From the NCBI RefSeq assembly GCF_000372365.1, contig NZ_AQUU01000015.1:1-48999 (forward strand): 48,999 bases of DNA. Direction: 5' to 3'. Position numbers and translations under genes: made by a program. This document shows positions 8,333-40,336 of this stretch, one piece after another (the stretch's first letter is position 1; the number at the start of each line of letters is the position of its first letter). The DNA is from Aggregatibacter actinomycetemcomitans DSM 8324 (GTDB lineage: Bacteria; Pseudomonadota; Gammaproteobacteria; Enterobacterales; Pasteurellaceae). The notes beneath the pieces are model-generated. The model made no database searches. It was not told the origin of the DNA and saw only the letters and a list, made by a program, of their open reading frames with translations.

Positions 8333-8363
8333 TGACCACACTTTAAAGGAAAAAGTGCGGTCA
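8333..8363 (+). repeat. Inverted uptake-signal pair (one copy degenerate) before mnmE
   Basis: TGACCACACTTT (8333-8344) and AAAGTGCGGTCA (8352-8363) pair over 12 bp with one A-C mismatch caused by the degenerate left copy. Located 28 bp before the mnmE ATG. It can form a hairpin but has no T-run after it, so I call it a repeat rather than a terminator. Confidence 0.7.
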
Positions 8364-25777: not shown

Positions 25778-25810
25778 ATGATTACCGTCGTACTTTTTCG
25801 CTATTTATGA
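25778..25810 (+). CDS. Possible 10-codon upstream ORF before pflA
   Basis: ATG with GGGGAAAG 7-14 bp upstream encodes MITVVLFRYL then TGA, ending 18 bp before the pflA ATG. The ribosome-binding site is as good as that of pflA. It could be a translated leader or chance. No homologue known to me. Confidence 0.25.
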   Translation: MITVVLFRYL

Positions 25811-39632: not shown

Positions 39633-40336
39633 ATGCAACATAAATTGGTGATTTTTATCGGTGGCGGCAATATGGCACAAGCCATCGTGTTCGGTTTGTT
39701 AAAACGTGGTTATCCTGCCGATAAAATCATTGTCTGTGATCCTAACGAAGAAAAACGGGATTTGTTTGCGCAAAAAGGTGTGCGCACGGCAACGGATAAT
39801 GTTGCGGCAGCCATGCAGGCGGATGTGGTGTTGTTGGCGGTAAAGCCGCAGATGTTGGTGGCAGTTTGTGCGCCGTTAAGTGCGGTAGATTTTCAGGCTA
39901 AATTGGTGATTTCCATCGCCGCCGGGAGTTCGTTGGCAAGATTGACCGCACTTTTGCGCAGGATTTGTTGGCCGCCGTGGGCAAAACCCTGTGGCTTGAT
40001 TCGGAAGAAAAAATGCACGCCGTTACCGCCGCCTCAGGCAGCAGCCCGGTGTATTTTTTTCAGCTGTTGGAAGCCATGCAACAAGGTTTGATTCACATGG
40101 GATTAAACGATCAGCAGGTACGCGAATTGGTGCAGCAGGCAATGTTGGGTTCGGCAAAAATGGTGGTGGAAAATCCACAACTGGATTTAGCAACCTTGCG
40201 CCAAAATGTCACATCCAAAGGCGGCACCACGGCAGCAGCGCTGAATGTGTTCAATCAACGTCAATTTAACGACATCGTGCAGCAGGCAATGCAGGCTTGC
40301 ATGGCACGTTCAAAAGAAATGGAAACCTTATTTTAA
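39633..40336 (+). pseudogene. proC: Pyrroline-5-carboxylate reductase, internal deletion with frameshift
   Basis: ProC makes the last step of proline synthesis. The start is good: MQHKLVIFIGGGNMAQAIVFGLL with the dinucleotide-binding GGGNMA. Frame is kept through SIAAGSSLARLTAL at about 39950. The second half, in another frame, resumes at FAQDLLAAVGKTLWLDSEEKMHAVTAASGSSP and continues through TSKGGTTAAAL to SKEMETLF. The 704-bp length is about 112 bp short of a usual proC. What is missing is the segment carrying the RxMPNTPA signature near the substrate site, so this is not a base-calling slip. The lesion sits in the uptake core 39945-39953. Almost certainly inactive, implying proline need or a second copy. 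Confidence 0.93.

Follow-up and report, generated by a model that had tools for sequence, protein, structure and literature searches.

A disrupted proC gene

The stretch of DNA analysed here, referred to as the window, comprises positions 1-48999 of contig C15 (48,999 nucleotides) in a 2.09-Mb genome that is represented by one assembly of 33 contigs and rated 100% complete. It carries a broken copy of proC, interrupted at a junction that holds an uptake signal (USS) core. Counts of proC, proA, and proB in congeners refer to eight other Aggregatibacter genomes, one per species. The nearest relatives are A. actinomycetemcomitans SL7469 907 (G004) and A. actinomycetemcomitans HK_961 (G008), to which C15 aligns at ~91-95%. 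In what follows, L006 and L005 are the proC sequences of these two relatives, and L013 is the A. kilianii sequence. The features of the locus and of the related sites elsewhere in the genome are collected in Table 1.

Table 1. Positions of proC features and of the proB and proA sites (window numbering unless a contig is named)
Feature	Position	Strand	Basis or remark
proC, broken	39633-40336	+	comparison with eight other Aggregatibacter genomes
proC left part (Rossmann half)	39633-39943	+	PF03807; TIGR00112 positions 1-107; eight-congener alignment; ends at the last base before the shared repeat
152-aa frame from the proC start codon	39633-40091	+	departs from proC at the junction; stop at 40091
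Additional exact USS core in proC	39878-39886	+	opposite strand to the junction core, away from the junction
Junction, sole remaining copy of the direct repeat GACCGCACTTTTGC	39944-39957	+	two copies in relatives, 112 bp apart
Exact USS core AAGTGCGGT (minus strand), within the repeat at the junction	39945-39953	-
proC right part (dimerisation half)	39958-40336	+	PF14748; TIGR00112 positions 148-263; frame differs from left part
Open frame, TTG start, within the proC right half	39965-40336	+
proB, broken, two pieces in different frames	C9:47658-48391 (L112)
proA site, gene and surroundings missing	C15:63139-63172 (L061)

The proC reading frame is open in all eight of the other Aggregatibacter genomes examined (272-275 codons) and is broken in the window genome. 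A first-pass annotation of the sequence had estimated the loss at about 110 bp and proposed alignment with relatives; such alignment gives exactly 112 bp absent relative to each of the eight congeners. The same annotation recognised both halves of ProC and a change of frame where they meet, and profile searches and alignment bear it out on both counts. The frame that runs from the start codon matches F420_oxidored (PF03807) at 77.4 bits, and the open frame in the right half matches P5CR_dimer (PF14748) at 118.7 bits. Against the NCBIfam proC profile (TIGR00112), the two pieces align to separate parts of the model, with the stretch between them absent. Scored separately they reach 78.5 and 122.3 bits, both below the curated cut-off of 196.75 bits, as compared to 271.4 bits for an intact relative. 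As 112 divided by three leaves a remainder of one, the reading frame changes at the junction and the right half of the gene is out of frame.

The lost segment corresponds approximately to residues 104-142 of the 271 in an intact relative and includes VRVMPNTPA. A segment of this type is present in the aligned relatives, and in alignments with solved structures it reads VRVMPNTP in 1yqg and VRAMPNTP in 3tri. It is presumably part of the ProC active site. The first-pass annotation held that the signature motif of the gene was gone, which is correct for the MPNTPA segment but not for the C-terminal PROSITE-type signature; this P5CR signature (PS00521) is retained in the right half with the match LATLRQNVTSKGGTTAAALNVFN. 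Both folded halves known from ProC structures (3tri, 1yqg, and human PYCR1) are recognisable in the window sequence, but they stand in different frames and lack the segment that should connect them. No single frame, as looked for in a functional P5C reductase, passes through both domains. With the right half out of frame and VRVMPNTPA lost, a working P5C reductase would not be expected from this sequence. Relaxed selection on the two halves was considered and rejected, as the ratio of nonsynonymous to synonymous codons is 7:9 on the window branch versus 3:4 and 4:5 on the sister branches. There is no clear nonsynonymous excess, and thus, the deletion aside, proC does not look long decayed.

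The remainder of the proline pathway

Besides the broken proC, the window genome lacks proA and has a broken proB. The best match to proA in the window genome reaches 47.7 bits, within an 879-codon frame, against a cut-off of 317.45, whereas all eight congeners have the gene at >600 bits. In G008, proA shares a contig with proC and lies ~24 kb beyond it; the corresponding place in the window genome lacks ~3.0 kb and has 32 other bases instead, and C15 ends ~1 kb later. A glycine-transporter-like gene is truncated at this site, and near the contig end an adjoining frame contains the P-loop-like sequence GKSGTGKT and has no Pfam match. The proB gene, whole in each of the eight congeners, has lost 291 bp between two 11-bp repeats, and its frame, judged by eye, changes both before and after the deletion. 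Its left piece alone still exceeds the family cut-off (216 versus 186 bits). The idea that a USS marks each lesion of the pathway was rejected, as the proB repeats GTGCAGGCGGA are ordinary repeats rather than USSs, and no USS within one mismatch is found at either the proB or the proA break.

Profile searches of the window genome found a single P5CR_dimer match, and hence no second P5C reductase, and no match to ornithine cyclodeaminase. A Na+/proline symporter is present, with a score of 675.1 bits. Judging from gene content, the strain most likely needs external proline and would live on imported proline or peptides. The first-pass annotation had predicted proline dependence unless another reductase existed. 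The need is indeed likely, no other P5C reductase having been found, but it is not attributable to the proC deletion alone, because proA is missing and proB is broken too.

Comparable absences occur elsewhere in the family. In three other members (G011, G012, and G013) neither proA nor proB is matched above the cut-off, and two (G012 and G019) have no P5CR_dimer match; therefore, loss of the pathway is not new in the family. According to PMC13076348, H. ducreyi, a host-bound member of the Pasteurellaceae, lacks proline biosynthesis. Loss of proline synthesis is then common to both, the difference being that the window genome still shows the remains of proC and proB. In the reconstruction of PMC2690999, F. 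nucleatum, P. gingivalis, and T. denticola lack proline synthesis, and A. actinomycetemcomitans HK1651 is handled as an outlier. Among the literature matches listed for the collection and terms searched, no title concerned a need for proline in A. actinomycetemcomitans.

Direct repeats at the proC junction and the origin of the deletion

The window contains 44 exact copies of AAGTGCGGT, as compared to a mean of 0.39 in 100 shuffles, and this sequence is the 9-base core of the Pasteurellaceae USS. The junction repeat in proC holds one such core on the minus strand, in line with the first-pass annotation, which had placed the junction within or beside it. In the relatives, a sequence like GACCGCACTTTTGC occurs twice in proC, in the same orientation and 112 bp apart, and in G007 the two copies are read in two frames, as L-T-A-L-L and D-R-T-F-A. 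The window proC has a single copy, preceded by the sequence that flanks the left copy on its left in the relatives and followed by the sequence that flanks the right copy on its right, and therefore bears the mark of a direct-repeat deletion. The deleted length equals the spacing of the repeats, 112 bp.

The expectation that USSs would stand at the ancestral endpoints is upheld fully on the right and partly on the left. The right copy is exact in all eight congeners. The left core is exact in three (G007, G005, and G003) and within one mismatch in five; G006 and G001 have one mismatch, G002 has three, and both nearest relatives, G004 and G008, have two. With G008 as the undeleted reference, the ends of the proC deletion share an exact repeat of at most 7 bases; for random placements the median is 4 bases, with 95% and 99% points of 6 and 8. 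Both the decayed left copy in the nearest relatives and this short end repeat count against a deletion between the repeats.

On this evidence, the window proC is very probably a pseudogene produced by a direct-repeat deletion in which both repeats were uptake signals. In the ancestral proC, two same-way copies of the GACCGCACTTTTGC-like sequence would have stood at a spacing of 112 bp and been read in two frames. Misalignment of the copies, presumably by slipped-strand replication or single-strand annealing, would have taken out one copy together with the 98 bp between the copies, which would have broken the frame and removed VRVMPNTPA. Decay of the gene was probably tolerated, because the proline pathway as a whole is dismantled, with proA missing and proB broken. 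Known deletions by slipped misalignment or single-strand annealing take the same form, with two copies in the intact sequence, one in the deleted sequence, and a lost length equal to the spacing, and so does the proB deletion in the same genome. Ordinary direct-repeat deletions differ in that the repeats here are uptake signals, which are abundant in the genome for another reason. The mechanism is most likely of a known kind and the repeats are what is unusual. Slippage aided by a hairpin was tried as a refinement and rejected, since the L005 segment shows no unusual hairpin and its folding is ordinary (z = 0.8).

The first-pass annotation proposed instead that the deletion was created by imported DNA joined at a USS. 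An import could have taken the form of a fragment recombined at the USS or of an already deleted donor allele that replaced the local one. The location of a USS exactly at the junction invites such a reading, natural transformation and USSs in A. actinomycetemcomitans are the subject of a title in the reference list of PMC2996985, and in the 80 bp at 39801-39880, which lie just left of the junction, the window is nearer to the A. kilianii sequence L013 (85%) than to L006 (80%) and L005 (82%). The sites that L013 and the window share against both L006 and L005, 19 in number, are however no more clustered than chance, their densest 80 bp being reached by 522 of 2000 random sets, and L006 or L005 is the closest sequence in both of the 80-bp intervals that span the junction. 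The agreement between lost length and repeat spacing, moreover, is what local misalignment would produce. The proposal is not supported by these comparisons, and we regard import as improbable; joining at a USS is possible but not needed, and an already deleted allele may have spread between sister strains. A deletion between direct repeats that required no imported DNA is the most likely origin of the present sequence. A search for the junction pattern in viral_contigs returned 0 matches.

The short direct repeat at the junction and the division of the assembly into 33 contigs would both be compatible with an error of assembly or sequencing, in which near-identical repeats were collapsed and the DNA between them dropped. 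Such an error is very unlikely, as the genome is rated 100% complete and the other two pathway genes are independently broken or missing in it, as real loss predicts. Usual sequencing reads are, in addition, longer than the 14-bp repeat. Least credible is a deletion that was unrelated to the repeats and merely ended in a USS: the left copy has two core mismatches in both nearest relatives and most clean indels of the window genome (see below) have no notable end repeat, but the deletion length matches the copy spacing, and random deletions of equal lengths yield a mean of only 0.052 fitting USS pairs (<=2 mismatches) per set of 20.

Uptake signals and deletions elsewhere in the genome

A second USS-to-USS deletion, of 118 bp, lies at C15 ~62475, 22.5 kb from that in proC. 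The window genome has one USS at this site, whereas a pair of copies in the same orientation, spaced by 117 or 118 bp, is found in all six relatives for which both flanks could be read (G001, G002, G004, G006, G007, and G008; a single flank matched in G003 and G005). In G008, one of the two copies has a mismatch. Judged by the longest open frames, the 118-bp loss removes the start of a minus-strand gene that has no Pfam match.

Indels were then surveyed over 332191 bases of four contigs of the window genome (C15, C9, C1, and C2; C11 and C14 were unused) in comparison with G008. The survey yielded 34 indels or breaks; at 26 of them the window genome lacks DNA, and at 8 it has additional DNA. 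Twenty clean indels (16 missing, 4 extra) were tested for USS pairs at their ends, and the other 14 were excluded. A pair with exact cores fits none of the 20 (random mean 0.001), a pair with <=1 mismatch fits one (random mean 0.004), and a pair with <=2 mismatches fits two (random mean 0.052), a number that a fraction of 0.001 of 2000 random sets also attained. Of these two, proC itself prompted the test, and therefore only the case at C15 ~62475 is independent. At two of the 20, the ends share an exact repeat above the 8 bases that mark the 99% point of random placements, with 11 bases in proB and 36 bases in the other.

Most USS pairs have been left in place. On the G008 stretches, a single aligned block contains both members in 21 of 23 exact same-strand pairs with a spacing of 50-300 bp, and in 46 of 58 pairs when <=1 mismatch is allowed, and such pairs have thus not been lost in the window genome. 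USSs are accordingly not supported as the main cause of deletion, with at most 2 of the 20 clean indels fitting a USS pair and 46 of 58 near-exact pairs undisturbed. An effect of USSs on deletion, if real, is weak, and most deletions of the window genome have no USS at their ends.

Several other differences from the relatives were observed. At window position 25789, ~297 bp present in G004, G007, and G008 are missing, including a small open frame that starts MITV; the right edge of this gap is inside a USS. Opposite window positions 8363 and 20501, contig C22 of G008 (L049-L051) is longer by ~74 and ~81 bases, which are palindromic in part and adjoin USSs. Both sites were discarded as deletions in C15, since G004 aligns without a break and the insertions are in G008 only. 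Another repeat, of ~100 bp, occurs at many places in G004, G007, and G008. With 26 missing against 8 extra relative to G008, a count in which the G008 insertions are included, the window genome may be shrinking.

A more general reading is that uptake signals double as deletion hotspots: the drive that maintains hundreds of USSs in a genome would also seed same-way repeats, and where the members of a pair lie within a few hundred bases of one another, loss of the DNA between them would be more frequent, with a single USS marking the scar. We consider this doubtful, because 46 of 58 near-exact pairs are undisturbed. PMC2397512 ties uptake signals to genome stability and describes them as absent from recently lost core genes in Neisseria, with similar preliminary results for the Pasteurellaceae USS. 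In contrast to that pattern, the USSs in proC mark both edges of a loss. No title among the literature matches listed, for the collection and terms searched, dealt with deletions between uptake signals.

With its proline pathway dismantled, this oral bacterium is predicted to be nutritionally dependent. If the reading of uptake signals as deletion hotspots were general, it would identify a cost of these signals that lies outside the stability view set out in PMC2397512, and one open to counting across Pasteurellaceae or Neisseria genome sets.
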